Below are positions 32,565 to 63,351 of a DNA stretch of 64,000 bases, in pieces; within the stretch, counting starts at the first letter, position 1, and each line of letters opens with the position of its first letter. Made by a program: the position numbers and the translations under genes. The notes under the pieces are model-generated. The model made no database searches. It was not told the origin of the DNA and was given only the letters and a program-made list of their open reading frames with translations. This stretch comes from Alphaproteobacteria bacterium (GTDB lineage Bacteria; Pseudomonadota; Alphaproteobacteria; Sphingomonadales; Kordiimonadaceae): contig JAJFIS010000019.1 of NCBI GenBank assembly GCA_021774735.1, positions 1 through 64,000 of the forward strand, written 5' to 3'.

Positions 32565-35027
32565 TTAAGAACGCAATTTTTCATTCATGGGGTCATAGGG
32601 GCTTTCGTCCAAAACAGTGGCTTTAAACCGCTTGCCGAGAATGTCAATTTCAAGCGCCGTTCCAGCCGCAGCAAAAGCCGGATCGACCATTGCAAGAGCG
32701 AGAGACTTTTTAACCCGGAAACCATAATTCCCGCCGGTCGCACGGCCAATCACTTTGCCGCCAGAATATATCGGATTATTGCCCAAAACATCAGCGTCAT
32801 TACTGCCGAAAACTTCCATGGTGACAAAGGCGTTTTTCTCCCCGGCTTCCTTGCGAGCAAGCAGTGCGTCTCGGCCAACAAAGTCGCCTTTCTCCGTTGC
32901 GATAAAGCGATCAAGCGCCGATTCGTAAGCCGAATATTCGATCGACATTTCCGTGCCAATAAGCCGGTAAGATTTTTCAACCCGCATGCTATCCATCGCC
33001 CGAATACCAAATGGTTTCAGGCCGTGGGCTGCGCCGTTTTTAAACAACATATCAAAAATATGGTTTTGATATTCAATCGGATGGTGGATTTCCCAGCCAA
33101 GCTCGCCGACAAAATTCACCCGGATCAATTTAACCGGCGCATGACCGATCGCGGTTTCTTGGCCTGTTAACCACGGGAACGCTTTATGAGAAAGATCATT
33201 ACTGCAAAGCGGCTGCAATAAATCACGGGCTTTTGGCCCCGCCACCACAAACACGCCCATCGCCCCGGTTAAATTTTCAAACTGGACCGAGCCATCTTTT
33301 GGCATTTGTTTCTTGAGCCAATCATGGTCCATCCGCTGCCACGCCCCGGCGGACACAAGGTAATAACAGTTTTCTGATTCGCGCTGAATAGTGAATTCAC
33401 ACTGAACCCCACCGGTAGGAAGTAGGCCGTGCAAAAGACCCACCCGGCCAATTTTCTTTGGTAATTTATTGGCCAGAATATTGTTTAAAAAAGCTTCCGC
33501 CCCGGGGCCAGAAATGCGGCATTTGGCAAAAGCGGTCATATCCAACAGGCCGACATTTTCTTGCACATTTCGGCATTCATTACCCACATGCTCAAACCAC
33601 CGAGAGCGCCGGAAAGACCAATGGTCTTCTTGGGGGCTGCCATCCGGGGCAAAGAAATTGGGGCGTTCCCAACCAAAAAGCTGACCAAATACTGCGCCCT
33701 TTTCCTTCATTCGGTCATAGCATGGTGCCGTGCGCAGGGGCCGAGCCGCACCGCGTTCCTCATCGGGGTAATGCACCGAGAAAACATCGGCGTAAGCTTC
33801 TTCGTTTTTAGTGATCAGAAAATTCTTCGTGGCATAATCACCGAACCGGCGCGGTTCTACCCCGAGCATATCAACCGTCGGCGCGCCGTCCACAATCCAT
33901 TCTGCCAATTGCCAACCGGCACCGCCGGCCGCAGTAATGCCGAAACTGTGACCTTCATTCAGCCAAAAGTTTTTAAGATCCCACGCCGGGCCAACAATTG
34001 GGTTACCATCAGGTGTATAAGCGATGGCCCCATTATAGACGCGCTTAATGCCTAAATTTTCAAATATTGGTACCCGGTTTATGGCTGATTCTATATGGGG
34101 CAACAAACGGTCTAGGTCTTCTTGAAATAACTCATTTTCACTATTCTCATCAGGCCCATCAATATAGCATGCCGGTGCGCCAACTTCATAAGGGCCAAGC
34201 AACAAGCCGCCCGCTTCTTCGCGCATATACCATGACCCATCAGATTCGCGCAGAACACCAAGTTCCGGCAAACCTTTATCACGCCGGGCCAAAATTTCTG
34301 AGTGCGATTCGGTGACAATATATTGGTGCTCAACCGGTATAACAGGTATATCAAGCCCGACCATAGCCCCGGTTTGGCGGGCAAAATTACCGGTGGCAGA
34401 AACCACATGTTCACAGGTTATCTCGCCCTTGTCGGTGATGACGGTCCAGCTGTCATCCGGGTTTTGGGTGATGCCGGTGACGGTGGTGTAACGGTATATT
34501 TTTGCCCCGCCCGCCCGCGCGCCTGATGCCAATGCCATGGTTAAATCAGCGGGCTGAACATAGCCGTCACCCTCATGCTGCATCGCACCGATAAGACCGT
34601 CAGGCACTGCGAAAGGCCAAATATCGATAACGTCTTCAGGGCTTAAAAATTTCACATCAACACCAATGGTTTGGGCAACCCCGGCATATTGGTGATATTC
34701 ATCCATGCGGTCTTGGTTGGTGGCTAGGCGAATGTTAGACACTTTGCGCAGGCCAACATGCTGGCCTGTTTCAGCTTCTAAGCGGTCATAAAGTTCCACT
34801 GAATATTTATGTAACTGCCCGACAGAATAGCTCATGTTAAACAAAGGCAGCAAACCCGCCGCATGCCATGTGGAACCGGATGTTAATTCTTTCCGTTCGA
34901 TCAGCACCACGTCATTCCAGCCTTTTTTCACCAAATGATATAGGGTCGAAACGCCGACAACACCGCCGCCTATAACAACCACACGGGCATGTTTTTTCAT
35001 TGTGTTCTTATTTTCTTTTTCTGTCAT
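32565..35027 (-). CDS. Dimethylglycine/sarcosine dehydrogenase-type flavoprotein
   Basis: An 820-residue member of the DMGDH/SARDH family. The N-terminal DAO-type FAD domain begins 'ARVVVIGGGVVGVSTLYHL' and carries 'SGSTWHAAGLLP', where the histidine (His55) is the position of covalent FAD attachment in mammalian DMGDH. The C-terminal half (from about 430) is a GcvT-like tetrahydrofolate-binding region ('VNFVGELGWEIHHPIEYQ', 'GIRAMDSMRVEKSYR'). It oxidatively removes an N-methyl group and hands the carbon to THF. As the last gene of the corrinoid operon, 37 bases after the MttB-family gene, it probably takes the product of that enzyme, for example dimethylglycine. The exact N-methyl substrate is inferred. 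Confidence 0.87.
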   Translation of the reverse strand: MTEKENKNTMKKHARVVVIGGGVVGVSTLYHLVKKGWNDVVLIERKELTSGSTWHAAGLLPLFNMSYSVGQLHKYSVELYDRLEAETGQHVGLRKVSNIRLATNQDRMDEYHQYAGVAQTIGVDVKFLSPEDVIDIWPFAVPDGLIGAMQHEGDGYVQPADLTMALASGARAGGAKIYRYTTVTGITQNPDDSWTVITDKGEITCEHVVSATGNFARQTGAMVGLDIPVIPVEHQYIVTESHSEILARRDKGLPELGVLRESDGSWYMREEAGGLLLGPYEVGAPACYIDGPDENSENELFQEDLDRLLPHIESAINRVPIFENLGIKRVYNGAIAYTPDGNPIVGPAWDLKNFWLNEGHSFGITAAGGAGWQLAEWIVDGAPTVDMLGVEPRRFGDYATKNFLITKNEEAYADVFSVHYPDEERGAARPLRTAPCYDRMKEKGAVFGQLFGWERPNFFAPDGSPQEDHWSFRRSRWFEHVGNECRNVQENVGLLDMTAFAKCRISGPGAEAFLNNILANKLPKKIGRVGLLHGLLPTGGVQCEFTIQRESENCYYLVSAGAWQRMDHDWLKKQMPKDGSVQFENLTGAMGVFVVAGPKARDLLQPLCSNDLSHKAFPWLTGQETAIGHAPVKLIRVNFVGELGWEIHHPIEYQNHIFDMLFKNGAAHGLKPFGIRAMDSMRVEKSYRLIGTEMSIEYSAYESALDRFIATEKGDFVGRDALLARKEAGEKNAFVTMEVFGSNDADVLGNNPIYSGGKVIGRATGGNYGFRVKKSLALAMVDPAFAAAGTALEIDILGKRFKATVLDESPYDPMNEKLRS

Positions 35028-35064: not shown

Positions 35065-36603
35065 TTAACTAATGTTTGAATCTGGGAAACTGGCTTTTTT
35101 ATCGTCCATATATTTCAGCAACCTTGCGTCAATATCCGGGTCAAGTGCCGGGGGAACATAATCGGCCAGCATTTTCTTATATTGTTTTTCAGCCCGCATT
35201 TCAGCGTCCAAACTGCCATCCTCTTCCCATTGTTCATAACTGTTATTGTCCGCAATGCTGGAGGTGTAAAAAGCGGATTTGAAATTGGCTTGGGTATGGG
35301 CGCATCCAAGAAAATGTTGCCCCGGCCCAACTTCACGCAGCGCATCCAGCGCTTGGCCATTATCCGACATATCAACCCCGCGAGCATAAACCGCCATCAT
35401 GCCCGCTTGGTCAGCGTCCATGATAAATTTTTCATAGCCCATTGCCAGGCCGCCTTCCAGCCAGCCCGCAGTATGCAGCATAAAATTAACACCCGCTAAC
35501 AAGCCCGCTTGCAAGGTATTGGCCGCTTCATAAGCAGCTTGGGCATCGGGTACTTTGGAGGCATTAAAACCACCTGCACTGCGAAATGGCACCCCAAGCC
35601 GCCGGGCAAGGGCCGCGCCAATATTTATCACTTGCGATGCTTCGGGTGTGCCAAAGGTTGGTGCGCCAGATTGCATCGACATGGAACTGACAAAATTACC
35701 GTAAATAACCGGTGCGCCGGGGCGAACAAGTTGCGCCAGCGCCATGCCCATCATACCTTCTGCCAAACTTTGGGCCGCGACCGCCGCCACCGTTACTGGC
35801 GACATTGCGCCTGCAACAATGAAGGGGCTTACCATGCTGGCCTGACCGTGCAGGGCATAATTTTTCAGCGCTCCAAGCATTACGCTATCAAAAGTCATCG
35901 GCGAATTGGCATTGATCAAACTGACCAAAACACAATTTTCTTCGACAAAATCATCACCGAAAACTATTTTCGCCATATCAACCGTATCTAAGGCTCGGCG
36001 CGGTGCGGTTACCGACCCCATGAAAGCTTTGTCGGAGTATTTTATATGGCTATAAATCATATCATAGTGGCGCTTATTCACGGGCAGATCGACCGGTTCA
36101 CAGATCGTGCCGCCGGAATGGTGGATGTGCGGCGACATATAGGCCAGCTTCACAAAATTGCGGAAATCTTCAATGGTTGCGTAGCGCCTTCCGCCTTCGC
36201 GGGAATAAACAAAGGGCGACCCATAAGCGGGAACCAAGACCGTATTTCTACCGCCAATTTCCACATTATTAGCGCTGTTCCTGGCGTGCTGAGTGAATAT
36301 GGAAGGTGCAGATTTTTGAATGATCTCCCTGCACATGCCGCGCGGAAAGCGCACCCGCTCGCCGTCAGCACTGGCCCCGGCCGCCGTTAAAATATTTATA
36401 CTTTCAGGATCATCTTTGATATCGATGCCAATATCTTCAAGAATTGTGTCAGCGTTATATTCTAGTTGGGCAAGATCAGCGTCGCCTAAAATTTCATAGG
36501 GCGGAATTTTCCTAACAATAAATGGGTCGCGCGGCGCCACGGCCTCAGCTGTTGCTTGCGCTCTGCCTTTGCGGCCACCTCTGGTTCTGCCTTCTCGGGC
36601 CAT
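35065..36603 (-). CDS. MttB-superfamily (non-pyrrolysine) corrinoid-dependent methyltransferase
   Basis: A 512-residue member of the trimethylamine methyltransferase (MttB) superfamily. The TIM-barrel pattern is visible in 'YNADTILEDIGIDIKDDPESINILTAAGA' and 'RPGAPVIYGNFVSSMSMQSGAPTFGTPE'. There is no in-frame UAG, so no pyrrolysine. That places it with MtgB-type enzymes that demethylate quaternary amines such as glycine betaine, proline betaine or carnitine and methylate a corrinoid protein. The N terminus is unusually basic ('REGRTRGGRKGRAQ'). The stop of the activase gene is one base before its ATG, with AAGGAA inside the activase end as ribosome site. Glycine betaine is the best guess from the dimethylglycine-dehydrogenase-like and sarcosine oxidase genes. 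Confidence 0.87.
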   Translation of the reverse strand: MAREGRTRGGRKGRAQATAEAVAPRDPFIVRKIPPYEILGDADLAQLEYNADTILEDIGIDIKDDPESINILTAAGASADGERVRFPRGMCREIIQKSAPSIFTQHARNSANNVEIGGRNTVLVPAYGSPFVYSREGGRRYATIEDFRNFVKLAYMSPHIHHSGGTICEPVDLPVNKRHYDMIYSHIKYSDKAFMGSVTAPRRALDTVDMAKIVFGDDFVEENCVLVSLINANSPMTFDSVMLGALKNYALHGQASMVSPFIVAGAMSPVTVAAVAAQSLAEGMMGMALAQLVRPGAPVIYGNFVSSMSMQSGAPTFGTPEASQVINIGAALARRLGVPFRSAGGFNASKVPDAQAAYEAANTLQAGLLAGVNFMLHTAGWLEGGLAMGYEKFIMDADQAGMMAVYARGVDMSDNGQALDALREVGPGQHFLGCAHTQANFKSAFYTSSIADNNSYEQWEEDGSLDAEMRAEKQYKKMLADYVPPALDPDIDARLLKYMDDKKASFPDSNIS

Positions 36604-36604
36604 T

Positions 36605-38572
36605 TTACTGTTCCTTTTCTACATTGATAGAGGGGCGGCGACGCCGACGCTTATTTCTATTTTCATCTATATTCGCCCTCGGGGCGGTTGGAAATGCCAT
36701 CGCATCAACAAAATATTTTTGGAATTTTGCTTCGGTTGCCGTCTCTAATCTTTCTATTTTTTGTACCGCCTGAATGATACGGGTTTGCGCGTCCTGGTCC
36801 AACAATGCCATCGCCGCACCCATGCCTGCGGCGTTGCCGACCGCTTTAATCTGTGTCGCCTTGACCTTCGGAATAATGCCAATATCAGCCACATATGTGC
36901 TATCCAAATGCGTGCCAAAAGCGCCCGCCAACAACACTTCTTCAACAGCATCGCATTCAAGATAGTCTGTCAGCAGACTAACCCCGGCGTTAAGGGCAGC
37001 TTTGGCAAGCTGGACCGCCCGCACATCGGTTTGTTTGATAAAAATTTTATTCTTAGGGTGATCAACTAACAGATATTTCCACGTCTTGCCTTCTGGGACA
37101 AATCTGTCCGGGGCTTTTGTCGGAACAAAAAGACCGCTCTCATCAATCAGACCGTTGTTCGCCAGCTCGACCATCACTTCAAAAATACCGGAGCCACAAA
37201 TGCCGGTAATATTGTGCGCAGACAGGTCATCCTTGCCATCATCCAGCCAAGCCTCATGACCAATAATCTTAAACTGGGTCGTGTGATCATCCTTGATGCG
37301 AATGCGTTCAATCGCCCCTTTGCTAGCCCGAACGCCTGCACTTATTTCCGCCCCTTCAAAAGCAGGACCGGTGGGCGATGATGCCGCCACGACCCTGCCT
37401 TTATGGGTTAAGAGAATTTCAGCGTTGGTACCAATATCGACCAGCAAAACCGACCGCCCGGCCATAGCATCCATTTGGGTAAGATAGGCCCCCGCCATAT
37501 CGGCCCCAACATGACCCCCGATCAGAGGTAAAAAGGATATTTGCGCGGCGGCATTTAGGCCCATTGCCAAACCACCTGCGGGCATTGATATCCAATCTTT
37601 AACCGCCAAGGTGAAGGGCGCTTGGCCAAGTTCCACTGGTGATATACCAAAAAATAAATGATGCATGATCGGGTTGCCGACCATTACCAATTCCATGAAA
37701 TGTTCCATCGGCACTGCAAGCGTGTCCGCCGCTTCTTGCACCATCTGGGTAATTTCTGTTCGTATCGCTGTGGTTAATCGCGCGTCACCGCCTTTGTTCA
37801 TCATCACATAAGAAACCCGGCTCATTAAATCTTCACCGAATTTAATTTGCGGGTTCATCGCGGCATTTTCATAGACCAAATGACCACTGATAAGGTCATA
37901 AACATAAACCGCAAGCGAAGTAGAGCCAATATCAATCGCGGCGCCGTATAGGCCGCCATCATCTGGGGCGCGTACATCAACCACAATTGCACCGCCCCGG
38001 ACAACCGCAATTATGGTGCGATTGTTTGCGGATAATGTTGGCTGTAATTTCACGAGCACTGCCGGGTCAAGCGTGACGGTAAGCCCAAAATCCATCAGGG
38101 CTTTGACCAAACCATCAGCGTCACAGGGGTTATCGTCCAAGGTCGGCAGTGGCAATTGGCACATATAAATTTTCACCACAGGGTTCAGCTTGGCATCAAT
38201 AAAGCTGCTGGCTTTGCGGATGCTGCTGATAACCTCGCGGCTATCACTGGGAATTTCAACAATGACATCTCCGCGAATTTTGGCGCGGCATGCAAGACGG
38301 CGCTTTGGGGTTAAGCGCCCTCGGTCCATTGCTTCAAGCTCCACTGAATCAGGTGAAGAGAGACAGTCATCCCCGACGGTAATTTGATATTTTGCGTGGG
38401 TGCCACTTTCAACTTCAATCTGGCAGCGTTTGCATAGGCCTTTACCGCCACAAATAGAGCGCATATCAACCCCCGCCCGCAGCGCAGTTTCATAAACAGT
38501 TTCGCCTAATGCGGCAAAAGAGCGAACCCCTGACGGGGTGAATATCACACTATGTTGTTGGCCTACTGTCAC
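36605..38572 (-). CDS. RACo-type reductive activase of corrinoid proteins (ASKHA, DUF4445)
   Basis: A 655-residue ATP-dependent activator. The N-terminal [2Fe-2S] ferredoxin domain has Cys41, Cys47, Cys50 and Cys95 ('SICGGKGLCKRC', 'LACRAK'). A linker follows, then an actin-like ASKHA domain ('GAAIDIGSTSLAVYVYDL', 'LVDIGTNAEILLTHKG', 'GNAAGMGAAMALL'). This is the layout of RACo, which reduces inactive Co(II) corrinoid to Co(I). It differs from RamA, whose iron-sulfur cluster domain is C-terminal. The C terminus here ends in a basic run 'NKRRRRRPS'. It starts at a GTG overlapping the GFA stop (GTGA). It would reactivate the corrinoid protein of this operon after accidental oxidation, which must be frequent in air. 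Confidence 0.87.
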   Translation of the reverse strand: MTVGQQHSVIFTPSGVRSFAALGETVYETALRAGVDMRSICGGKGLCKRCQIEVESGTHAKYQITVGDDCLSSPDSVELEAMDRGRLTPKRRLACRAKIRGDVIVEIPSDSREVISSIRKASSFIDAKLNPVVKIYMCQLPLPTLDDNPCDADGLVKALMDFGLTVTLDPAVLVKLQPTLSANNRTIIAVVRGGAIVVDVRAPDDGGLYGAAIDIGSTSLAVYVYDLISGHLVYENAAMNPQIKFGEDLMSRVSYVMMNKGGDARLTTAIRTEITQMVQEAADTLAVPMEHFMELVMVGNPIMHHLFFGISPVELGQAPFTLAVKDWISMPAGGLAMGLNAAAQISFLPLIGGHVGADMAGAYLTQMDAMAGRSVLLVDIGTNAEILLTHKGRVVAASSPTGPAFEGAEISAGVRASKGAIERIRIKDDHTTQFKIIGHEAWLDDGKDDLSAHNITGICGSGIFEVMVELANNGLIDESGLFVPTKAPDRFVPEGKTWKYLLVDHPKNKIFIKQTDVRAVQLAKAALNAGVSLLTDYLECDAVEEVLLAGAFGTHLDSTYVADIGIIPKVKATQIKAVGNAAGMGAAMALLDQDAQTRIIQAVQKIERLETATEAKFQKYFVDAMAFPTAPRANIDENRNKRRRRRPSINVEKEQ

Positions 38573-39027
38573 GCCGTTACCCCTCGCAGCATATCGCCCG
38601 GGGGGTAGCTTTCAAACTGAGGCAAGCCATCGGTAATGTCATAATAAGTATTTTTTTCGCCAACAAATATATGCCCCTTGACCGCCAAACCACTAGCATC
38701 ATCGAAGCTGCCCGCCATAATGCTGATGGTTTCATTTTCCTCACTATCCCAAAAGAGCAAACTGCCACAAAGGCTACAGGAACCAGTTTTGGTGCGCGGC
38801 GAAATTGCCCGCCAAGTCACATCACCGCTTTGGGAAAAATTATCGCGCATCACTCCTGCCGCTGCCACAAAATGCCCGGTTAATTTCTGGCATTGATGAC
38901 AGTGGCAAAACCAAATGTCTGCGGCCTGCTCAGCAGAAAACTGCACCGCACCACAGTGACAACTTCCACCATGCTGCTGATTGCCCAAGCCCTTTTTAGC
39001 TGTTTTATGCTCTGCGCCGACGGCCAC
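38569..39027 (-). CDS. GFA/CENP-V family zinc protein
   Basis: A 152-residue protein of the glutathione-dependent formaldehyde-activating (GFA) fold. Three cysteine groups are visible: 'CHCGAVQF', 'CHCHQCQKL' and 'CSLCGSLLFW', the standard zinc sites. Founding members were proposed to speed the condensation of formaldehyde with glutathione, although most homologues have unknown substrates. It starts at a GTG with GGGGAGG upstream, 23 bases inside the end of the methyltransferase gene, and overlaps the activase gene. Its place inside a demethylation operon suggests formaldehyde capture from the flavoprotein demethylases (inference). Confidence 0.82.
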   Translation of the reverse strand: MAVGAEHKTAKKGLGNQQHGGSCHCGAVQFSAEQAADIWFCHCHQCQKLTGHFVAAAGVMRDNFSQSGDVTWRAISPRTKTGSCSLCGSLLFWDSEENETISIMAGSFDDASGLAVKGHIFVGEKNTYYDITDGLPQFESYPPGDMLRGVTA

Positions 39028-39901
39028 GACGACCTCCCCTGCCTTCGCCTTCTGCTACTGGTTCCCTGAATGTTTTAATCCAATAGGCACAGCTTCGATC
39101 AACACCGGTTAACACATCCGCCGCTTTGATAGATGGTACCAGCCCTTCATGCATCGGATTAAGGATCGCCGATGTCATGCCAGACGCCGCCAGCATTGGC
39201 AGAAATGCATTGTTAATTGCATGCCGGTTAGGCAAGCCAAACCCAATATTGGATGCGCCGCACGTTGTGTTTACTTTCAGCTCGTTCCGCAATCGGCGGA
39301 TAAGATGAAAAACATCACGTCCCGCACTATTGATGGCACCGATGGGCATAACCAGTGGGTCCACCACAACGTCACAGGGTTTTATGCCGTGATCTTGCGC
39401 CCGCTCAACAATTTTTTTAGCAACTTCAAAACGTTCATCCGGGTCTTCCGAGATGCCCGTGTCATCATTGGAAATAGCAACCACCGCCGCGCCGTATTTC
39501 TTCACCAGCGGCAAAACCTGTTCCATCACTTCATCTTCAGCCGTGGTTGAATTTACCAGCGCCTTACCTTGGTATACTTTCAAGCCGGCTTCGAGCGCCG
39601 CTATAATGGAAGAATCTATACATAAGGGGACATCGGTTATCGATTGCACCAATTGAATAACTTCTGCCAAAATTTTAGGTTCATCCGCCAAGGGGATGCC
39701 CGCATTCACATCCAGCATCTGCGCCCCTGCTGCCACTTGGGCTAGGGTATCAGCCTCCACACGGCTATAATCACCCACTTTCATTTCCGCCGCCAAAAGC
39801 TTGCGGCCCGTGGGGTTTATACGCTCGCCAATCATAACAAAGGGTTCATCAAAACCAATGATGGTTTCCCTTGTTGCTGAACTTAACACTGTTCTCGTCA
39901 T
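39005..39901 (-). CDS. Methyltetrahydrofolate:corrinoid methyltransferase
   Basis: A 298-residue pterin-binding TIM barrel of the MeTr/AcsE/MtvA-like group. 'FVMIGERINPTGRKLLAAEM' at the N terminus, 'GAQMLDVNAGIPLADEP' and 'CGASNIGFGLPNRHAINNAFL' are the family signatures for folate and corrinoid contact. In this operon it would move the methyl group from the methyl-corrinoid protein to THF, giving 5-methyl-THF. The core ends at about residue 280 and is followed by an Arg/Gly-rich tail ('GRGGRRGRRRRA') not seen in acetogen enzymes I know of. It precedes GFA with overlap and follows metF-like by 50 bases. Confidence 0.87.
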   Translation of the reverse strand: MTRTVLSSATRETIIGFDEPFVMIGERINPTGRKLLAAEMKVGDYSRVEADTLAQVAAGAQMLDVNAGIPLADEPKILAEVIQLVQSITDVPLCIDSSIIAALEAGLKVYQGKALVNSTTAEDEVMEQVLPLVKKYGAAVVAISNDDTGISEDPDERFEVAKKIVERAQDHGIKPCDVVVDPLVMPIGAINSAGRDVFHLIRRLRNELKVNTTCGASNIGFGLPNRHAINNAFLPMLAASGMTSAILNPMHEGLVPSIKAADVLTGVDRSCAYWIKTFREPVAEGEGRGGRRGRRRRA

Positions 39902-39951: not shown

Positions 39952-40983
39952 TTAACCCACAATGCCGATGGATGTATCCATACTCAAAGGTGACCATGGT
40001 TTACGGCCGCCAAGCACGCCCGAGCGCGTTACCACATCACTCACATATTGTTCCTGTTTATAGGCCATCACATGGATGCCACTAACGCCGTCAATTTCAC
40101 TGATTTGCTGCATCAATTCGACGCAGATATCCCGCCCCGCCTGTTTTTGGTCGCTCGCCCCTTCAAGACGGTGGACAATCTCATCAGGGATGTGAACACC
40201 CGGCACATTTGATCGCAGCCATTTTGCTGTTCGCGCTGACGCCAAAACCCCAACGCCAACCAACATATAGCAGCGTTCCGTTAAGCCCATATCCACCGCT
40301 TGGCTCATGAAATTTTTCAGCATCTCCACATCAAAACAATATTGCGACTGAATATATTCTGCCCCGGCTTTAATCTTTTTCTCCAGCTGCAAAGCCCGAC
40401 TTTCAACCGGCGGCACAAAGGGATTGATCGATGCTCCCATAAACAGTTTCGGCGGGCTTGATATTTTCCGGCCACTTAAAAATTGTGCGTCATCGCGCAG
40501 GGTGCGAATTGTCTGTAAAAGTGACACACTATCCAGATCAAAAACTGCTTTTGCTTCTGGGTGGTCCCCGGCGCTAACGTCATCACCCGTCAAACATAAG
40601 ATATTGCAAACCCCAAGCGCCGATGCCCCCAAAACATCACCCTGAATGGCGATCCGGTTTCTATCACGGCAGGACACTTGAATGATCGGCGAATAGCCAA
40701 CCCGAGTTAAAATAGAACAAACTGCCAAGCTGGACATATGGCAATTTGCCCCGGATCCATCGGTAGCGTTGATCGCATCCACATAACCATCAAAAAGTTG
40801 GGCGCGGTGCAACACCTCGTCGGGGTCAGCGGAATCAGGTGGGGCTATTTCAGTGGTAACAGCAAAATGCCCTGCCTTTAAAACACGCTCCAAGCGGCCA
40901 TGGGAAACATGGTCAGGTAATTGCGGCAAGGGATCACCAGCATTTACACCAAACAGAGCCACATTTTCATCATGTTTTTTCAT
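39952..40983 (-). CDS. Methylenetetrahydrofolate reductase (MetF family)
   Basis: A 343-residue MetF-type FAD TIM barrel. The catalytic glutamate region is 'FAVTTEIAPPDSADPDE', followed by 'VDAINATDGSGANCHMSSLA', 'LCLTGDDVSAGDHPEAK' with the family FAD/NADH loop, and 'IQSQYCFDVEMLKNFM'. In assimilatory metabolism MetF makes 5-methyl-THF for methionine synthase. Here, coupled by a four-base overlap (ATGA) to a MetV-like gene and placed after the methyltransferase chain, it would run in the oxidative direction to methylene-THF. The electron acceptor cannot be read from sequence. Confidence 0.87.
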   Translation of the reverse strand: MKKHDENVALFGVNAGDPLPQLPDHVSHGRLERVLKAGHFAVTTEIAPPDSADPDEVLHRAQLFDGYVDAINATDGSGANCHMSSLAVCSILTRVGYSPIIQVSCRDRNRIAIQGDVLGASALGVCNILCLTGDDVSAGDHPEAKAVFDLDSVSLLQTIRTLRDDAQFLSGRKISSPPKLFMGASINPFVPPVESRALQLEKKIKAGAEYIQSQYCFDVEMLKNFMSQAVDMGLTERCYMLVGVGVLASARTAKWLRSNVPGVHIPDEIVHRLEGASDQKQAGRDICVELMQQISEIDGVSGIHVMAYKQEQYVSDVVTRSGVLGGRKPWSPLSMDTSIGIVG

Positions 40984-41432
40984 TGCCCTTGGTCCTTAGC
41001 CCGCGCCAAAGAAAGCCACGTTGATCTACCCTTAATGCTGTGGTCCACAGCAAAATCCAAGCTACGAATGGCCCCTGCGTCTTTCATTATGCCAGCACCA
41101 CTCCATGCCTCAACCCACACACAGCGCATATCTGCTTTTACTTCGCACATGCCATTTGCCCGCACGCCGCCACACGGTCCATTGCGAATGGTTTTTGGGC
41201 AATTCATCGGACAGCTCATCCCCGTTTTGGAAAGCACACAGTTGCCGCACATTTTGCAATCAAACATCACACCCTTAAATGACGCTTCAAGCGCAGTGAT
41301 AGGGCGGTCCAATTTGGTGCCAAACAAAAATGTAATGAAACGCAACACCACCAAAATAACAGGGTTGCCTAAATTATACACCGACTCTAAAAAGCGGGAA
41401 CGACGGCTTGACCATAAACGAACGCGGTACAT
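40980..41432 (-). CDS. MetV-like protein (MTHFR C-terminal zinc/iron-sulfur domain)
   Basis: A 150-residue protein matching the MTHFR_C/MetV family, the partner of MetF in acetogenic methylene-THF reductases. Eight cysteines are seen at 59, 62, 65, 74, 78, 87, 96 and 104 ('CKMCGNCVLSKTGMSCPMNC', then 'GPCGGVRANGMCEVKADMRC'), able to hold metal or iron-sulfur clusters. Residues 17-38 form a basic-flanked hydrophobic stretch ('NPVILVVLRFITFLFG') that may touch the membrane. I start at 41432, one base after the DUF1638 stop with GGGGGA upstream; a longer frame to 41486 would overlap DUF1638 by 53 bases. It is coupled to metF-like. Confidence 0.83.
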   Translation of the reverse strand: MYRVRLWSSRRSRFLESVYNLGNPVILVVLRFITFLFGTKLDRPITALEASFKGVMFDCKMCGNCVLSKTGMSCPMNCPKTIRNGPCGGVRANGMCEVKADMRCVWVEAWSGAGIMKDAGAIRSLDFAVDHSIKGRSTWLSLARAKDQGQ

Positions 41433-41433
41433 A

Positions 41434-42087
41434 TCACCGTCCCCCCATGCGGTCAGAGTTGGTCGGCACAAGGGCAGGTTTCTCACCCGCTAAAATACCC
41501 ACGGCACCAGCCAAATCACCATACCCGACATGACGGTGAACCAAAGACAAACCAAGCCGGTCTGCGGCGACCTGCGCTTTTTCAATCAAGACTGGATCAT
41601 GGGTCTGGGCCAGATAAACGACCTGTGTATAATTGCCAAAATAGCTATCCAACAAATGGGGAAAGCGATCAAGGCCAAGGCCTTTTATAACCAGTCGATC
41701 AAAGTTTTTAACCAAATAATCAGTTAAGAAAAAGCTGCCAATTTCAGTGTCTGTAATTTCGCGAAACTGGGATGCGCCCGCATAAAATTCATAACAATGC
41801 GCGCCGTGCAAGCGAGACGCACCGTAACTTTCCAGCACCGCGTCCAAAGCACCGCCAGTGCCACATTCACCGTAAGCCACAAATATTCTGTCGTAGCTAC
41901 TGGCCTCCCGGGCGAGAATTTCTTCTACAGCAGGGGCAATTTTAGCAGGCTGATTATGATATTCAGCAGGCACACACTTCAAAGTCATGGTGGCATCATC
42001 CAAACCAAGCTGCTGGCGGAGGGTAACTATTTCCCGCGCCAACGCACCGCATGCTACCAATAAGCTTTTATGAAGTTTTCTGCCCAT
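41434..42087 (-). CDS. DUF1638 family protein
   Basis: A 217-residue DUF1638 protein. The pattern 'LLVACGALAREIVTL' at the N terminus, 'FVAYGECGTGGALDAVL' and 'GAHCYEFYAG' is characteristic, with conserved cysteines (about residues 13, 74 and 97) that could bind metal or a cofactor. The family is found beside corrinoid methyltransferase genes in methanogens and other organisms and has no proven function. Here it lies between the corrinoid protein (10-base gap) and MetV-like genes. A role in corrinoid or folate handling is inferred only from position. Confidence 0.83.
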   Translation of the reverse strand: MGRKLHKSLLVACGALAREIVTLRQQLGLDDATMTLKCVPAEYHNQPAKIAPAVEEILAREASSYDRIFVAYGECGTGGALDAVLESYGASRLHGAHCYEFYAGASQFREITDTEIGSFFLTDYLVKNFDRLVIKGLGLDRFPHLLDSYFGNYTQVVYLAQTHDPVLIEKAQVAADRLGLSLVHRHVGYGDLAGAVGILAGEKPALVPTNSDRMGGR

Positions 42088-42827: not shown

Positions 42828-44528
42828 TCAACTCAAGCCAACAATTTGGCCGTCATCCCCCAGGCCAATGGAAAGCGCCGATGGCTTACGCGGCAAGCCC
42901 GGCATGGTCATAATATCGCCGCAGACGGCAACAATAAAACCAGCACCCGCCGAAAGCCGCGCTTCACGCACCTCCAACGTATGGCCCTTAGGCGCACCCT
43001 TTTTAGTGGGGTCAGAGGAAAAGCTATATTGGGTTTTGGCAATACAAATCGGCAAATGGCCATAGCCCAAATCTTCAAACTCGGCCAAAGTGCGGGCGGT
43101 GACTTTGCTAAGGGATATATCCGCAGCGCCATAGATTTTTTGAGCAACGGTACGAATTTTATCCGCCAATTGCATATCGTCAGGATAGAGAAGCTGCACA
43201 TCAGCTGATCCTTCATCAAGCTGAGCCATAACTTCGCCCGCTAAATCCACTGTACCATCACCGCCTTCTGCCCAGTGCTTGGCAACCGCCATTCGCACGC
43301 CTTGCTCGCGGCAAACCCGAGCAACAATGGCAATTTCTTCATCGCTGTCCGACACGAAATGGTTTAAGGCAACGACGGGTGTTATGCCAAACTTACGCAG
43401 GTTGGCAATATGCTGTTCAAGGTTAACACTGCCCCGCTCCAATGCCACCGGATCACTGACACCAAGATCATCTTTCGCCACGCCGCCTTGCATTTTCAAT
43501 GCCCGAATAGTGCTAACCAAAACAACAGCATCAGGCCGCAAGCCCGATTGGCGGCATTTAATATCTAGAAACTTTTCAGCGCCCAAGTCAGCGCCAAAGC
43601 CAGCTTCGGTCACCACCACATCACAGAGGCCAAGCGCGGTGCTGGTCGCCATTACGCTATTACAGCCATGGGCGATATTGGCAAAAGGTCCGCCGTGGAT
43701 GAAGGCCAAATTATGTTCAATCGTTTGAGCCAAATTGGGTTGAAGCGCATCTTTCAATAGCACCGTCATGGCACCATCAGCACCCAGATCACGCGCGGTT
43801 ACCGGGGCTTTATCATAAGTGCGGCCAACGATAATATTACCAATGCGAGTTTGCAGATCAGCGATATCAGTGGCGAGGCAGAGGATAGCCATAATTTCCG
43901 AAGCCACGGTAATATCAAAACCACTTTCGCGCGGCACCCCGTGTACAGGGCCACCAAGGCCAATATTGATGTTACGCAGAGCGCGGTCATTCATGTCCAC
44001 AACCCGCCGCCAACTGATCCGACGCGGATCTATATTGAGCGCATTGCCCCACTGCATATGATTATCGAGAAGTGCGGATAATAAACTATGGGCTGAGGTA
44101 ATCGCATGGAAGTCACCATTAAAATGCAGATTGATATCCTCCATCGGAACAACCTGCGCGCGGCCACCGCCAGCGGCGCCACCCTTCATGCCGAAACATG
44201 GCCCAAGTGATGGTTCCCGCAGGCAGACCATTGCATTAACACCAATTTTATTCAGACCATCCGTCAACCCCACGCTGGTGGTGGTTTTGCCTTCACCCGC
44301 TGGGGTCGGCGTAATCGCCGTCACCAAAATAAGTTTGCCTTTTTTGCCATCTTTATTTTTGGAGATATAGTCCAATGTTAATTTGGCCTTGTGGTGACCG
44401 TAAGGCACCAAGGCTTCGCCGGGAATACCAAGGCGATCAAAGGCCAATGGCAAAATAGGTTTCATTTCAGCCGCGCGCGCAATTTCAATATCCGGCGCAC
44501 CTGCGGGTGGTAACTTCGATTGTGACAT
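42828..44528 (-). CDS. fhs: Formate-tetrahydrofolate ligase
   Basis: A 566-residue 10-formyl-THF synthetase with the P-loop '[12 protein letters not shown]' (about 73-84), '[25 protein letters not shown]' and '[14 protein letters not shown]', at the normal length. It interconverts formate, ATP and THF with 10-formyl-THF. As the first gene of the demethylation operon it could run in reverse to free formate and conserve ATP from methyl-derived 10-formyl-THF, feeding the formate dehydrogenase at 57-62 kb. The cyclohydrolase/dehydrogenase (FolD) step is missing locally. The promoter region upstream is shared with a divergent GlxA-type regulator. Confidence 0.93.
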
Positions 44529-44832: not shown

Positions 44833-45801
44833 ATGTTCGGAAATAATCAGTTAAAGAAAACCCAAAATATTGGTTTTCTGCTAGTACCAGAGTTTTCTAT
44901 GATTGCCTTTACCGCATCGATAGAACCCTTGCGCACGGCCAACCGGATGAGTGGCAAAACGCTATATACATGGCAAATATTTACCCCCAACAATGAGCTC
45001 ATCGCCGCCAGCAACGGCGTGACAATTAAACCCAGCGCCAAGCTTGACGATTGCCGACTGGATGCCTTGTTTGTTTGTGCTGGTCTGAATGCTGAGAAAT
45101 ACACAAGTCGCGCTATACTGCAAAGCCTGCGCAGTGCGGTTAGAAAAGGTACGGCCCTTGGAAGCCTGTGCACCGGGTCTATCGCGCTGGCCGCAGCGGG
45201 TTTGTTAGACCAATATCGTTGCACCATACACTGGGAAAATATTGAGGGTTTTGTCGAAACCTTCCCAGAGCTTGATGTAACAGCCACTCTGTTTGAAATT
45301 GACCGAGGTCGTTACACTTGCTCTGGCGGGACCGCGCCTATCGACATGATGTTACATAGTATTTCCATCGAACATGGAGAAGAGCTGGCAACCTTATGTG
45401 CTGAACAATTACTGCATACATATGTGCGGCAAGCCCATGACCAACAACGTATGTCCCTGCAATATCGTACCGGCATTACGCACCCCAAGTTACTGGCAAC
45501 AATTGCTTATATGGAAGCCCATTTAGAAAGCCCCTTGTCCCAAGGAGAGCTATCGAAAGTTGTGGGATTGTCCATGCGCCAACTGGAGCGCCTATTCCAC
45601 AGCCATCTGGATAAAACACCCACGCGCTATTATCATGAATTGCGCCTGAAACGAGCGCAGGCCTTATTACTTCAAACCCCCATGTCAATCATGCAGGTGG
45701 CAGTGGCAACGGGCCATGGCTCAGCGGCTTATTTCACCAAATCTTACCGTGATTATTTTAACCGTCCACCAAGTGCTGAACGCCGTCTTAAAAAGGGCTA
45801 A
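44833..45801 (+). CDS. GlxA/GbdR-type AraC family transcriptional regulator
   Basis: A 322-residue regulator with an N-terminal DJ-1/PfpI-like domain (about 13-180; 'IGFLLVPEFSMIAFTASIEPLRTANR', 'LGSLCTGSIALAAAGLLD', 'CSGGTAPIDMMLHSI'). An AraC DNA-binding domain follows (about 225-320; 'SQGELSKVVGLSMRQLERLFHSHLDKTP', 'MQVAVATGHGSAAYFTKSYRDYF'). The 'PEFSMIAFTASIEPLRTANR' segment is typical of GbdR/CdhR regulators, which sense dimethylglycine, betaine or carnitine. It diverges from the ten-gene demethylation operon and is its likely activator. Its 3' end overlaps the convergent MFS gene by four bases. Confidence 0.87.
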   Translation: MFGNNQLKKTQNIGFLLVPEFSMIAFTASIEPLRTANRMSGKTLYTWQIFTPNNELIAASNGVTIKPSAKLDDCRLDALFVCAGLNAEKYTSRAILQSLRSAVRKGTALGSLCTGSIALAAAGLLDQYRCTIHWENIEGFVETFPELDVTATLFEIDRGRYTCSGGTAPIDMMLHSISIEHGEELATLCAEQLLHTYVRQAHDQQRMSLQYRTGITHPKLLATIAYMEAHLESPLSQGELSKVVGLSMRQLERLFHSHLDKTPTRYYHELRLKRAQALLLQTPMSIMQVAVATGHGSAAYFTKSYRDYFNRPPSAERRLKKG

Positions 45802-47175: not shown

Positions 47176-48759
47176 TCATTTTAACCCCTGATCATGATAG
47201 GCTTTTCGCAGCCCCTTTATCACCCCAATGCTCATCAAAAGTATGACAAACATAAAGGGTAGCCCCAGCACATTGGTTGCCGCCTGCAAGGACCGCAGCC
47301 CGCCGCCCAGATGCAACGCTATGGCCACACAGCCCACCAGCACCACCCAAAAGACCTTCTGGAATTTGCTGGTATTGATATTGCCGCCCGACGCCATGGT
47401 ATCGAGCACCAAGGCACCAGAATCCCACGACGTTGTGAAAAAGATCAACAACAGCACAATAGCAAACATCGAAACAATTTCCGTGAAGGGTAATTGTTGC
47501 AACATCACAAACAACTTCATGGAACTTTCCGCCTCGACCAAGGCAGTGTTACCGTGAGTGACAATCTGATCAATAGCGGAAGTGCCAAACACTGTCATCC
47601 AGATCGCGCCAACCAGCGAAGGTACCAGCAGGGCAAAGAATAAAAATTCCCGCACCGTGCGCCCCTTAGACACTCGAGCGATAAACATGCCAACAAACGG
47701 TGCCCATGCGGCCCACCATGCCCAATAAAAAATGGTCCAATCATTGAAGAACAGTTGATCATCACGATCTGTAATATCTGACAGTGCTATGATATTACTA
47801 AAATAAGCCCCAATGTTGCTAAAGACATCTGTCAAAATTAACAGCGTCGGCCCGACCACAATGACAAATAAAGCCAGCATCGCAGCCAGGAACATATTAA
47901 CCTCACTAAGCCGCTTCACCCCTTTATCCAAGCCCAGCGACACCGACAATAATGTGACACCTGCAACCGCCATCACCAACATGATTTGATTGATGGTATT
48001 TATTTCTGCGCCAAACAAGAAATTGACCCCCGACATTGCCTGATTAGCTCCAAGACCAAGCGATGTGGCTAGGCCAAACACTGTGGCTAAAATCGCTAAT
48101 ATATCAATGAAGTTACCAAATGTTCCCCATGTATATTTACCAATCAAGGGCTGAAAAGCGGACCTGATCGAAAGTGGTAAGCCAAAATTATAGCTAAAGA
48201 GTGCCAAAGACAAAGCCACCATGGCATAAATGGCCCATACATGGATCGACCAATGCATGATGGTTGCCGACATGGCAATGTCCTTCGCGGCCTGCATATC
48301 CCCCGGCGCACCGCCAAGGGGGGCATAGCTTCCCGCCTGACCCGCATCAGGGGCATAGGAGCTGGAAAAATGCGCAACCGGTTCCGCCACGCCGAAAAAG
48401 ACCAACCCCACACCAACGCCAGCGGCAAATAACATCGCGACCCAAGCTGTATAGCCAAATTCTGGTTTTGCCTCTAAGCCGCCAAGACGCACTTTGCCGT
48501 AGGGGGATAGCATTAAGGCAATGCAAATAAGCGCAATAATGTTGGCCATTGTTGCCATTGCACTATTGAACTGATTGGTAACAAATTTTAAGGCTATATC
48601 AAATAGACTGGCTGCTTCCTCAGGTAAGGCTAAGGTCAGCACCACCAAAGTTATGATCAAAATCGCAGAAATGAAAAAAACAGGCGGATTAATTTCCACC
48701 CCTTTATATGTCGCTGATTGATTTTGAATATTCATTTCGCTGTTATTATCATCCACCAT
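47176..48759 (-). CDS. BCCT family (betaine/choline/carnitine) transporter
   Basis: A 527-residue BCCT transporter with about twelve membrane segments. Diagnostic motifs are 'LFAAGVGVGLVFFGVAEPVAHF' (TM3) and the tryptophan-rich TM8 'YWAWWAAWAPFVGMFIARVSKG', which forms the quaternary-amine binding box. There is no long N- or C-terminal osmosensing extension, so nutrient uptake is more likely than osmoregulation. It sits beside the demethylation operon and its regulator, so it probably imports the substrate of the MttB-family enzyme. The ATG has GGGAG 9 bases upstream. A short inverted repeat, ATGCCT-AATC-AGGCAT (48788-48803), lies 29 bases before the start codon. Confidence 0.9.
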   Translation of the reverse strand: MVDDNNSEMNIQNQSATYKGVEINPPVFFISAILIITLVVLTLALPEEAASLFDIALKFVTNQFNSAMATMANIIALICIALMLSPYGKVRLGGLEAKPEFGYTAWVAMLFAAGVGVGLVFFGVAEPVAHFSSSYAPDAGQAGSYAPLGGAPGDMQAAKDIAMSATIMHWSIHVWAIYAMVALSLALFSYNFGLPLSIRSAFQPLIGKYTWGTFGNFIDILAILATVFGLATSLGLGANQAMSGVNFLFGAEINTINQIMLVMAVAGVTLLSVSLGLDKGVKRLSEVNMFLAAMLALFVIVVGPTLLILTDVFSNIGAYFSNIIALSDITDRDDQLFFNDWTIFYWAWWAAWAPFVGMFIARVSKGRTVREFLFFALLVPSLVGAIWMTVFGTSAIDQIVTHGNTALVEAESSMKLFVMLQQLPFTEIVSMFAIVLLLIFFTTSWDSGALVLDTMASGGNINTSKFQKVFWVVLVGCVAIALHLGGGLRSLQAATNVLGLPFMFVILLMSIGVIKGLRKAYHDQGLK

Positions 48760-57611: not shown

Positions 57612-60452
57612 TCATTCACCCGCTTGCAAAATATGCGTAACTGATTCTGCGCGGCCATCGCGTTCCTCTTGCCAACTGGTTTGGGCATTCGAGAGCCTAA
57701 CCTCAACCGCTGTTACCTTATATTCGGGGCAATTGGTTGCCCAGTCGGAATTCTCCGTGGTGACAACATTGGCCCCTGTGGTTGGGTGATGAAAAGTGGT
57801 ATAGACCACCCCTTGGGGCATGCGATCACTAACCACGGCCCTGAGCACCGTGTCACCCTTACGGCTGGCGAGCGAAATAAGGTCACCGTCGCGCACGCCG
57901 CGCAGTTCAGCGTCATGGGGGTGAATCTCCAGCAGGTCTTCCCCGTGCCAGATATTATTTTCCGTCCGCCGGGTCTGTGCCCCTACATTATATTGGCTAA
58001 GGATGCGACCTGTGGTCAAAATAAGCGGATATTTACGGGTCGAGCGCTCGTCCGTTGGCACGAAGCGAGTGAGCATAAATTGGCCCTTACCACGCACAAA
58101 ACCATCCACATGCATGGTGCGGGTGCCATTCGGGTTTTTCTCATTACACGGCCATTGCAGACTGCCCTCATCGTCTAACCGCTTGAAAGAAACGCCCGTG
58201 AAACTTGGTGTAAGCCGGGCGATTTCATCCATTATATCAGCAGCACTGTCCCACGCCATAGGGTAGCCCATCGCGTTTGAAAATGCACAAAGCGTTTGCC
58301 ATTCATCCATACCCTGCATCGGTGCGCGCACGGGCCGCACCCGGTTTATCCGCCGCTCCGCATTGGTGAAGGTGCCGTCTTTTTCCAAAAAGGACGTGCC
58401 GGGCAGAAACACATGGGCGAACTGGGCGGTTTCATTAAGAAATAGATCTTGGACGATGATACAGTCCATCGCCGAAAGTGCGGCTGATACATGTTGGATA
58501 TCCGGGTCCGATTGGGCGATATCTTCGCCCTGCACAAACAGTCCCTTAAAAGTGCCGTCCACTGCGGCGTCAAACATATTGGGGATACGCAAGCCCGGGG
58601 TCGGCATAATGCTTGTGCCCCAGTCACCTTCAAACAGCTCCCGCACACTGTCGATACTTACATGGCGATAACCGGGCAGTTCATGAGGAAAGCTGCCCAT
58701 ATCGCAGGAGCCTTGTACGTTATTTTGGCCCCTGAGCGGGTTGATACCCACCCCTTCGCGGCCAACATTGCCGGTGAGCATGGCGAGGTTCGCCATCGCC
58801 ATAACAGCCGATGACCCTTGGCTGTGCTCGGTAACACCTAAGCCATAATAAATGGCGCCGTTGCCCGCACCCGCATATAGCCGCGCCGCCGCTCGCAGCG
58901 TTTCCGCTGGCACGCCGCAAGTTTCCGCCAAAGCCTCTGGCGCATTTTCCGGCGTTTGAATAAAGTCTCGCCAACGCTTGTAGGCCGCATCGTCACAGCG
59001 CTCTGCGATATAATCAACCGATTCCAGCCCTTCGGTGATGATGGTGTAGGCCAGCGCATTCAGCACCGCAACATTGGTACCTGGGCGCATTTGCAGGTGG
59101 TGGCTAGCGCTTATATGGGCGCTTTTCACCAAATCAATCCGGCGCGGGTCGATGACAATTAACGCGGCTCCCGCCCGTAAACGCTTTTTCATCCGGGAAG
59201 CAAAAACAGGGTGGGCATCGGTGGGATTAGCGCCGATAACCATGATGACATCAGCTTCTTCCACCGATTTAAAGTCTTGTGTGCCAGCGCTGGTACCAAA
59301 GGTTTGGCCGAGACCATAACCAGTTGGTGAATGACAGACCCGAGCACAGGTATCGACATTATTATTGCCGAATGCCGCTCGTACCATTTTTTGAACCGCG
59401 TAAACTTCCTCATTGGTGCAACGCGATGAAGTGATGCCGCCAATGGATGTTTTGCCATGCTTAGCTTGAATGGCCTTAAAGCGTTCAGCAGCGTAATTGA
59501 TGGCTTCATCCCAACTGACCTCTTGCCATGGATCTGACGTTTTTTCGCGGATCATCGGCTTCATAATGCGATCCGCATGGGTGGCATAGCCCCAGGCAAA
59601 GCGGCCTTTGACGCAGCTATGGCCTTCGTTCGCACCGCCAGCTTTGGATGGCACCATGCGGATAAGTTTTTCGCCTTGCAGCTCCGCGCGGAACGAACAA
59701 CCCACACCGCAATAAGCACAAGTTGTCTCAACCAACTTTGTCGGTTGACCTTCGGTTATAATAGATTTTTCGCTCAACGTTGCCGTCGGGCAGGCTTGAA
59801 CGCAAGCACCGCAGGAAACACAGTCCGACGACAGAAAATCATTATCCGCTGTGCCGGCTGATACTTTCGAATTAAAACCTTTACCGTCAATAGTTAGCGC
59901 GTAGGTGCCTTGAACTTCTTCGCAAGCCCGCACGCAGCGAGAGCAAACAATACATTTGGCCGGATCAAAGGTAAAATAAGGATTGCTGGTGTCTTTTTCA
60001 GCATCCAGATGGTTTTCACCCTTATAGCCATAGCGCACATCCCGCAGGCCGACCTCGCCCGCCGTGTCTTGCAGTTCGCAATTGCCATTGGCGGCACAGG
60101 TTAAACAGTCCAACGGATGGTCGGAGATATAAAGTTCCATAATGCCCCGACGCAAGGTCGCAAGACGATCGCTTTGGGTATTGACCACCATGCCATCCGT
60201 CACCGGCGTTGTGCAGGATGATGGTGTGCCGCGCATGCCATCAATTTCCACCAAACACATGCGACATGAACCAAAGGGCTCAATGCTATCGGTTGCACAT
60301 AATTTGGGAATACTGGTGCCACAAACATTGGCCGCCCGCATAACAGTGGTGCCCTCTGGCACACTTACTTGCTTGCCGTCGATGGTCAGTGTGACCTGAT
60401 CACCGCCTTCAATTTTAGGCGTACCAAGGTCTATTTCAGGGGTATATTTCAT
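57612..60452 (-). CDS. fdsA: Formate dehydrogenase alpha subunit, molybdenum NAD-dependent
   Basis: A 946-residue catalytic subunit. The N terminus binds [2Fe-2S] (Cys52, 63, 66, 80). A His/Cys [4Fe-4S] site follows (His112, Cys116, 119, 125), then two ferredoxin-type clusters (Cys167-177 and 211-221) and a proximal cluster (Cys245, 248, 252, 280). The bis-MGD domain has the catalytic cysteine in 'RVCHSPTGYG' (Cys373), a cysteine not selenocysteine enzyme, and the C-terminal molybdopterin domain begins around 'PLILTTGRILSQYN'. It oxidises formate to CO2 and passes electrons to FdsB for NAD reduction. It overlaps fdsB by four bases. Confidence 0.95.
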   Translation of the reverse strand: MKYTPEIDLGTPKIEGGDQVTLTIDGKQVSVPEGTTVMRAANVCGTSIPKLCATDSIEPFGSCRMCLVEIDGMRGTPSSCTTPVTDGMVVNTQSDRLATLRRGIMELYISDHPLDCLTCAANGNCELQDTAGEVGLRDVRYGYKGENHLDAEKDTSNPYFTFDPAKCIVCSRCVRACEEVQGTYALTIDGKGFNSKVSAGTADNDFLSSDCVSCGACVQACPTATLSEKSIITEGQPTKLVETTCAYCGVGCSFRAELQGEKLIRMVPSKAGGANEGHSCVKGRFAWGYATHADRIMKPMIREKTSDPWQEVSWDEAINYAAERFKAIQAKHGKTSIGGITSSRCTNEEVYAVQKMVRAAFGNNNVDTCARVCHSPTGYGLGQTFGTSAGTQDFKSVEEADVIMVIGANPTDAHPVFASRMKKRLRAGAALIVIDPRRIDLVKSAHISASHHLQMRPGTNVAVLNALAYTIITEGLESVDYIAERCDDAAYKRWRDFIQTPENAPEALAETCGVPAETLRAAARLYAGAGNGAIYYGLGVTEHSQGSSAVMAMANLAMLTGNVGREGVGINPLRGQNNVQGSCDMGSFPHELPGYRHVSIDSVRELFEGDWGTSIMPTPGLRIPNMFDAAVDGTFKGLFVQGEDIAQSDPDIQHVSAALSAMDCIIVQDLFLNETAQFAHVFLPGTSFLEKDGTFTNAERRINRVRPVRAPMQGMDEWQTLCAFSNAMGYPMAWDSAADIMDEIARLTPSFTGVSFKRLDDEGSLQWPCNEKNPNGTRTMHVDGFVRGKGQFMLTRFVPTDERSTRKYPLILTTGRILSQYNVGAQTRRTENNIWHGEDLLEIHPHDAELRGVRDGDLISLASRKGDTVLRAVVSDRMPQGVVYTTFHHPTTGANVVTTENSDWATNCPEYKVTAVEVRLSNAQTSWQEERDGRAESVTHILQAGE

Positions 60453-62014: not shown

Positions 62015-62016
62015 GG

Positions 62017-62472
62017 TCAGCCCTTCCGCACTTGGGCTAGCAGGCCATCAACGGTGGCCCGGCCTTGGGGTTTACCGTCCAGCATAACAGCCGGACCAAG
62101 CGCACAGTTGCCGAGACAGTAAACAGCCTCGATTGCCACATGGTTGTCGGCAGTGGCCTCCCCCATTTTTACACCAAGAGCCGTGCTTAAATTTTTCTCT
62201 AAGCCCCTAGAACCCTGCGCTTGGCATGCCTCTGCCCGGCATATTTTAATAGTATGCTTGGCTGGTGGCGTAGTTTTAAAGTCAGGATAAAAACTGATCA
62301 CGCCCTGCACCTCAGCCGCAGATAAGTTAAGCGCATCCGCAATAATATGAATGTCGTCTGGCGCAACAAAACCATTTTCATGCTGCACATCATGCAAAAT
62401 TTCGAGCAAATTAGCCGCATTGTTGCCGTGGCTTGTGCATAAATCCATCAGAGCTTTTTCACCGTCTGACAT
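62017..62472 (-). CDS. fdsG: Formate dehydrogenase gamma subunit (NuoE-like)
   Basis: A 151-residue thioredoxin-fold [2Fe-2S] subunit with ligands Cys78, Cys83 ('CRAEAC'), Cys119 and Cys123 ('CLGNC'). I start at the ATG at 62472, with GGGGA nine bases upstream and four bases after the fghA stop. A longer frame from an ATG at 62511 adds 13 residues that overlap fghA and do not resemble FdsG. It is the first fds gene and follows the formaldehyde-oxidation genes directly, so formaldehyde-to-CO2 is encoded as one run. Confidence 0.9.
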   Translation of the reverse strand: MSDGEKALMDLCTSHGNNAANLLEILHDVQHENGFVAPDDIHIIADALNLSAAEVQGVISFYPDFKTTPPAKHTIKICRAEACQAQGSRGLEKNLSTALGVKMGEATADNHVAIEAVYCLGNCALGPAVMLDGKPQGRATVDGLLAQVRKG

Positions 62473-62476
62473 AAGC

Positions 62477-63351
62477 TTAATTCCCCGTCTCATCGTGTAA
62501 ATATTTAGCATGGTGCCTCAAGTGATCTTCGATGAAGCTGCTGATAAAAAAGTAACTATGATCATAGCCCGCGTGTCGCCGCAAGTTTAAAGTTTGACCC
62601 GAATTATGGCATGCTGCCACAAACAGTTCAGGCTTGAGCTGGTCTTTGAGAAAAGGGTCATCCAGTCCTTGGTCGATAAGAATTTCAGCCTTGTGGGTCG
62701 CACCAGAATTTACCAATGCACAGGCGTCATACGCCGCCCATTTTGAGCTGTCTTCACCCAAATAGGCCTTGAGCGCCTTCTGCCCCCACGGGCATTGCAT
62801 TGGTGCAACGATGGGCGCAAAAGCGGAAATACTTTTATAGACATCCGGGTTTTTAAGGCCAATAGTCAAAGCCCCGTGACCCCCCATACTGTGGCCCATA
62901 ATGCTTTGGCGGAACATATCCACCGGCAAACCAGAGGCCACCAATTCAGCCGGTAATTCGTTGACAATATAATCATACATAGCAAAATTATTCGCCCACG
63001 GCGCCTCCACGGCATTGACGTAAAAGCCAGCCCCTTGACCAAGGTCATAGGATTCATCGTCCGCAACACTATCAGCCATTTCACCCCTGCCCCGCGGGCT
63101 TGTGTCCGGACAGACCACCATGATGCCAAGCTCGGCTGCTACGCGCTGAAAGCCAGCTTTAACCGTGGCATTTTCTTCTGTGCAGGTTAACCCTGACAGA
63201 TACCAAATGACAGGGACAAGGTTGTCACTATCAGCCTGTGGCGGTGTAAAAACCGAATATTGCATATCGCAGCCAAGCACGGCAGATGCATGGCCGTAGG
63301 TTGCCATGCGGCCACCAAAGCAAGTTGTTTCGCTGATCGGCGCCCTAGTCA

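Follow-up and report, generated by a model that had tools for sequence, protein, structure and literature searches.

The window, a stretch of 64,000 nucleotides from contig JAJFIS010000019.1 of an alphaproteobacterium of the family Kordiimonadaceae (assembly GCA_021774735.1), contains an operon with the order mtgC–DUF1638–metV–metF–mtgD–GFA–RACo–mtgB, and genes for C1 oxidation lie alongside. A formate-tetrahydrofolate (THF) ligase gene stands ahead of mtgC, and a dimethylglycine/sarcosine dehydrogenase-like gene follows mtgB. The features are as follows.

32565..35027, minus strand: dimethylglycine/sarcosine dehydrogenase-like protein (DAO + GcvT)
35065..36603, minus strand: mtgB-like MTTB-family methyltransferase, a probable glycine betaine methyltransferase (PMC12478193)
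36605..38572, minus strand: RACo/RamA-like reductive activator of corrinoid proteins, with a [2Fe-2S] domain
38569..39027, minus strand: GFA-domain protein, between mtgD and RACo
39005..39901, minus strand: mtgD-like methyl-THF:corrinoid methyltransferase
39952..40983, minus strand: metF of the MetV-associated class, MTHFR barrel; catalytic Glu, Asp and Gln kept, Leu at the equivalent of Phe223
40980..40983, minus strand: stop/start overlap of metV and metF, 4 bp, ATGA (metV stop TGA at 40980-40982)
40980..41432, minus strand: metV-like gene, short form, 150 aa; helical N-terminus (1-58) and eight-Cys PF12225 domain
41082..41312, minus strand: PF12225/DUF5981 domain, eight conserved Cys and NGPCGG motif
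41319..41384, minus strand: hydrophobic stretch, codons 17-38, predicted helix; more hydrophobic than is usual in homologues, where it is amphipathic
41434..42087, minus strand: DUF1638 gene, whose product is a corrinoid-reactivation partner in Phaeobacter inhibens (PMC5764234)
42098..42784, minus strand: mtgC-like corrinoid protein
42828..44528, minus strand: formate-tetrahydrofolate ligase
44833..45801, plus strand: GbdR-like AraC regulator, divergent
47176..48759, minus strand: BCCT betaine/carnitine/choline transporter
57612..62511, minus strand: subunits of an NAD-linked formate dehydrogenase, for the last step of C1 oxidation

Sarcosine-oxidase-like genes also occur within the window, and together these genes plausibly make up a route from the methyl groups of glycine betaine to formate and CO2. 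The GC content of the operon (32565-44528) is 50.3%, and that of the whole window is 50.2%.

The metV-like open reading frame runs on the minus strand from 41432 to 40980 and encodes 150 aa with eight Cys at positions 59, 62, 65, 74, 78, 87, 96, and 104. A sequence-only reading of the window had described a 150-residue eight-cysteine protein overlapping metF by four bases; its coordinates were right, and it left the strand unstated. The start is the ATG at 41432, one base after the end of the DUF1638 gene. An in-frame GTG at 41486 would give a protein of 168 aa, and the homologues favour the ATG. The protein matched Pfam family PF12225 ('Methylene-tetrahydrofolate reductase C terminal') with an E-value of 3.9e-24 and 84.6 bits, so far above the cut-off of 23 that the match is not due to chance; no NCBIfam model matched it. 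The NGPCGG motif occupies residues 84-89. The spacing C-x2-C-x2-C-x8-C-x3-C-x8-C-x8-C-x7-C was identical in 81 of 81 homologues retrieved with peptide patterns (some of the Cys fall within these patterns). Of 34 loci retrieved with only the Pfam model, 33 have the same spacing and the remaining one has one-residue spacing changes. The homology to MetV that had been proposed earlier is borne out by the Pfam score, the motif, and the conserved Cys. Eight Cys are enough for two [4Fe-4S] clusters, and the protein, judged by its sequence, probably binds up to two. A sequence search of solved structures found no MetV chain, and the sole match of a profile search, an unrelated zinc-finger structure (E 0.032), was rejected. 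In the predicted model the Cys region has low confidence (pLDDT about 50), and a Foldseek search with this model returned nothing at E up to 10.

In a set of 289 alphaproteobacterial genomes, PF12225 was found in 24. Of 100 near relatives, 9 have it, and a search of 29 other genomes from the window's own family found no copy; this patchy distribution suggests that the operon was acquired by transfer or lost repeatedly. Scanning GTDB genomes gave at least 590 pattern matches, of which 589 were confirmed. The best 80 of these at least 590 matches fall in the alpha-, beta-, and gammaproteobacteria, including Halomonas, Pseudomonas, Agrobacterium, and Novosphingobium, and the carriers are, to judge by taxa, mostly oxygen-respiring. 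The statement that a MetV-like protein occurs here outside the acetogens therefore holds true, with the correction that such proteins are not rare. In public records the gene is annotated as 'methylenetetrahydrofolate reductase C-terminal domain-containing protein'. The same operon is carried by the pSymB replicon of Sinorhizobium meliloti. A PF13769 ('virulence factor') protein of ~104 aa lies by the operon in 26 of the best 80 loci, between DUF1638 and metV where checked (L073:9652-9999, L121, L123), and is lacking in the window. The GFA-domain gene was present in 17 of the best 80 loci.

The pairing of MetV with MetF is tight. Across the 289 alphaproteobacterial genomes, all 27 MetV proteins over the cut-off adjoin a MetF, and all 26 MetF proteins of the window's class (profile score of at least 555 bits) adjoin a MetV. 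The metF gene directly follows metV in 76 of the best 80 of the at least 590 loci. The four exceptions are a locus cut by a contig end (L044), one with metF further downstream (L085), and two with none in the locus (L061, L114), whose genomes encode this MetF class elsewhere. Twelve plasmid records matched MetV, and all ten full-length ones also carry an adjacent MetF of the window's class. In addition, natural MetV-MetF fusions of about 470-520 aa were found (L036/L037, L039, L140), and L142 is a fusion in the reverse order, with an MTHFR-like domain followed by a MetV domain. The fusions may stem from one event or several; a tree joins L036 and L039 with a support of 0.16. The mirror-tree correlation of MetV with MetF does not stand out and is uninformative since the operon is inherited together. 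The coupling of MetV to MetF noted in the sequence-only reading is supported by the adjacency in 27 of 27 cases and by the fusions, and we infer that the two proteins form a two-subunit complex. Weaker MetF proteins (about 300-465 bits) in the 289 genomes are mostly without a MetV of their own. Some of these precede a metVF pair as a second MetF, others come from genomes that lack MetV, and one (G125:C1) comes with an acetogen-like MetV of its own. Since such MetV-less paralogues exist, part of the wider MetF clade may work without MetV. In L009, L011, L018, and L022, a second MetF paralogue, of a class mostly without MetV, lies directly upstream of metV.

The MetF of the window matched the Pfam MTHFR family with 112.5 bits. 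Its AlphaFold model is an MTHFR barrel (pLDDT 88.4) with Thermus MTHFR as the best match (Z 26.5, rmsd 2.6 over 266 residues). Against TIGR00676, it scored 58.5 bits with a curated cut-off of 293.7 and thus fails the canonical NAD(P)H class. A second MetF in the genome scored 347.3 bits against the same model and is canonical; it is encoded beside a split metH, so that methionine supply should not need the MetV-linked MetF. The equivalents of Escherichia coli E28, D120, and Q183 are retained in MetV-associated MetF (Q183 with one exception), and the surrounding pocket is changed: position F223 is L, M or I, F30 is mostly A, D, N or S, T59 is N, H88 is Q, and R118 is T or S in nearly all, and H156 is mostly N. 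The MetF of a clostridial MetVF has most of the same changes, and the window-class MetF groups with it, apart from canonical MetF (tree support 0.82). The E. coli F223L variant has been reported to raise the Km for NADH about 12-fold and that for methylene-THF 16-fold (PMC11094777). Phe223 also contacts folate, and its loss alone is no proof of a loss of NADH use.

Acetogen MetVF contains two [4Fe-4S] clusters and FMN and makes no use of NADH (PMC8760232, PMC8515935). The window pair resembles the type II/2S enzymes of Clostridium ljungdahlii and C. formicoaceticum in having metV upstream of metF, the NGPCGG motif, and an altered MetF pocket. In enzymes of the MetVF type, metV immediately precedes metF, with an overlap in some species, and the 4-bp overlap in the window agrees with this. 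The clostridial MetV of Acetoanaerobium (L124) has the same eight Cys and, in an N-terminal domain that the window protein lacks, five additional Cys (37, 40, 44, 76, 103). Acetogen-type MetV proteins are about 23–24 kDa (200–225 aa) with this extra Cys-bearing domain, whereas the window protein has 150 aa and no Cys before position 59. The type II/2S enzymes are reductive and use ferredoxin in vitro, whereas the window protein has a helical N-terminus and is encoded in a catabolic demethylation operon. The type III (RnfC2) and type IV (Hdr-MvhD) enzymes of A. woodii, M. thermoacetica, and S. ovata resemble the proposed system in having a MetVF core with an additional module as its partner in electron exchange. 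Genes for RnfC2 or HdrCBA-MvhD were found neither among the window genes scanned nor as recurrent neighbours in the best 80 of the at least 590 loci. A survey found MetVF enzymes mainly in anaerobes (PMC8515935), and MetVF is described as an anaerobe enzyme in the literature searched; what is new here is the short MetV in a proteobacterial catabolic setting. The window protein belongs to the known MetVF kind as a short MetV found in a new context, and its function is assigned by association.

Among the closest described systems is MtgBCD-MetF2 of Ruegeria pomeroyi and Phaeobacter, which shares MtgB, MtgC, MtgD, DUF1638, a RamA-like protein, and a second MetF with the window. The main text of the paper on it mentions no MetV, whereas the window operon has metV placed between DUF1638 and metF (PMC12478193). 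Betaine demethylation in Ruegeria pomeroyi depends on MtgC and MtgD; on N-osmolytes, no other protein is induced as strongly as MetF2, which has been proposed as the methyl-H4F oxidiser (PMC12478193). In Methylobacterium CM4, MetF2 is essential for chloromethane use, in which methyl-THF from corrinoid methyl transfer needs to be oxidised (PMC3621897); the plasmids that matched the window MetV or its MetF class do not include that of CM4.

MtgC was present in 65, MtgD in 67, DUF1638 in 70, and RACo in 63 of the best 80 of the at least 590 loci. This company, together with the [2Fe-2S] domain of RACo, would also suit a MetV that serves as electron donor for corrinoid reactivation, with MetF and MetV feeding RACo, which reduces Co(II) using ATP. 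Such a role is improbable, as no corrinoid gene lies near metV in 8 of the 80 loci, and the genetics of B12 reactivation in Phaeobacter named the RamA-like protein and DUF1638 and no MetV (PMC5764234). In several of the eight corrinoid-free loci, metV or metVF is accompanied by folD, purU, and a DMSP-demethylase-like gene. The metV of Halomonas has on one side the DMSP-demethylase-like gene, whose best family match (370–384 bits) is below the cut-off of 410, and on the other purU-folD. One plasmid carries folD-metV-metF beside serine-cycle genes. The common element of the loci is the methyl-THF/methylene-THF step in catabolic company, which points to the oxidation of methyl-THF. The Halomonas loci L061, L062, and L114 have metV with the DMSP-demethylase-like gene, purU, and folD and no adjacent metF, and their genomes contain extra metV copies.

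In the proposed mechanism, MtgB, MtgC, and MtgD would transfer a methyl group from glycine betaine to tetrahydrofolate, and MetV and MetF would act as a two-subunit methyl-THF oxidase in the catabolic direction. The flavin of MetF would accept a hydride from 5-methyl-THF, and the clusters of MetV (eight Cys; probably up to two [4Fe-4S]) would take the electrons singly, in place of NAD(P)+, and pass them on, probably to ETF/ETF-QO or a quinone-linked carrier. The later steps of the oxidation would fall to FolD, formyl-THF enzymes, and formate dehydrogenase. This reading as a whole, with electrons from methyl-THF leaving through the MetV clusters, is considered likely. The relatives in acetogens run in the other direction (PMC8760232), and a reductive MetVF would supply methyl-THF for methionine or corrinoid methylation. 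That direction is very unlikely here, given the canonical NAD(P)H-class MetF beside the split metH and the catabolic context of glycine betaine transport and demethylation, dimethylglycine dehydrogenase, and formate dehydrogenase.

The standard potential (E0') of methylene/methyl-THF is -200 mV versus -320 mV for NADH (PMC8760232), which makes NAD+ a poor acceptor for methyl-THF oxidation. The view of the sequence-only reading that an oxidative MetF needs a high-potential acceptor is upheld by these values and by the catabolic setting. The same uphill step speaks against MetV as a structural or zinc-binding subunit with MetF alone carrying out the redox reaction with NAD(P)+, as do the pocket changes that a clostridial MetVF also shows. 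Such a role would accord with the annotation of acetogen MetV as a zinc as well as an Fe-S protein (PMC8515935) and with the related MetF paralogues that lack MetV, and it is judged unlikely. In Sporomusa, the quinone analogue AQDS was reduced with methyl-THF (PMC9430772). The genome of the window encodes ETF and ETF-QO, and a search of it for RnfC found none. From the potentials, the Sporomusa result, and this gene content, we infer that ETF or a quinone is the likeliest acceptor.

Electrons might also pass straight to the quinone pool if residues 17-38 of MetV tethered MetF to the cytoplasmic membrane; docking of this kind had been suggested from the sequence. The hydrophobic stretch is real, with a best 19-residue Kyte-Doolittle mean of 1.76. 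It lies within a 26-residue predicted helix, one of three predicted in residues 1-58, and the MetVF of Sporomusa is partly membrane-associated (PMC9430772). The stretch, however, has one arginine inside it (Arg31), and the median best 19-mer hydropathy of the 80 homologues is 0.75, with only one of them above 1.6; the window stretch, an outlier, ranks first in hydrophobicity among the 81. Most homologue sequences printed have at least two charged residues within the stretch, and the membrane link in Sporomusa was assigned to MvhD and not to MetV. There is thus little likelihood of membrane docking in the window. As a trait of the MetV family, a membrane anchor was rejected, since no transmembrane segment is conserved and the hydropathy is not kept.

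Methyl groups of glycine betaine and DMSP are a large marine carbon flow, and mtgC is highly expressed in the sea (PMC12478193). Oxidation of methyl-THF is the entry to C1 oxidation, and its electron acceptor in aerobes was not identified in the literature searched, in which no biochemistry of MetVF from aerobic proteobacteria was found either. If the ETF/quinone-linked reading is true, MetVF would make methyl-group oxidation energy-conserving and separate from NAD. A widespread class of MetVF that oxidises 5-methyl-THF in respiring proteobacteria through the short MetV, with electrons entering the respiratory chain by ETF or quinone in an energy-conserving, NAD-independent manner, is a tentative generalization with somewhat less than even chances. 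The operon on S. meliloti pSymB offers a genetically tractable carrier in which the question is directly testable. No electron-carrier or acceptor gene recurs beside metV in the best 80 of the at least 590 loci, and ETF was found near metV in Azoarcus only. In some alphaproteobacteria, an eight-Cys ferredoxin-like protein with no Pfam match is encoded near mtgB (L121:741-1445 on S. meliloti pSymB, L101, L107, L119, and L122) and is a possible candidate for an electron carrier.
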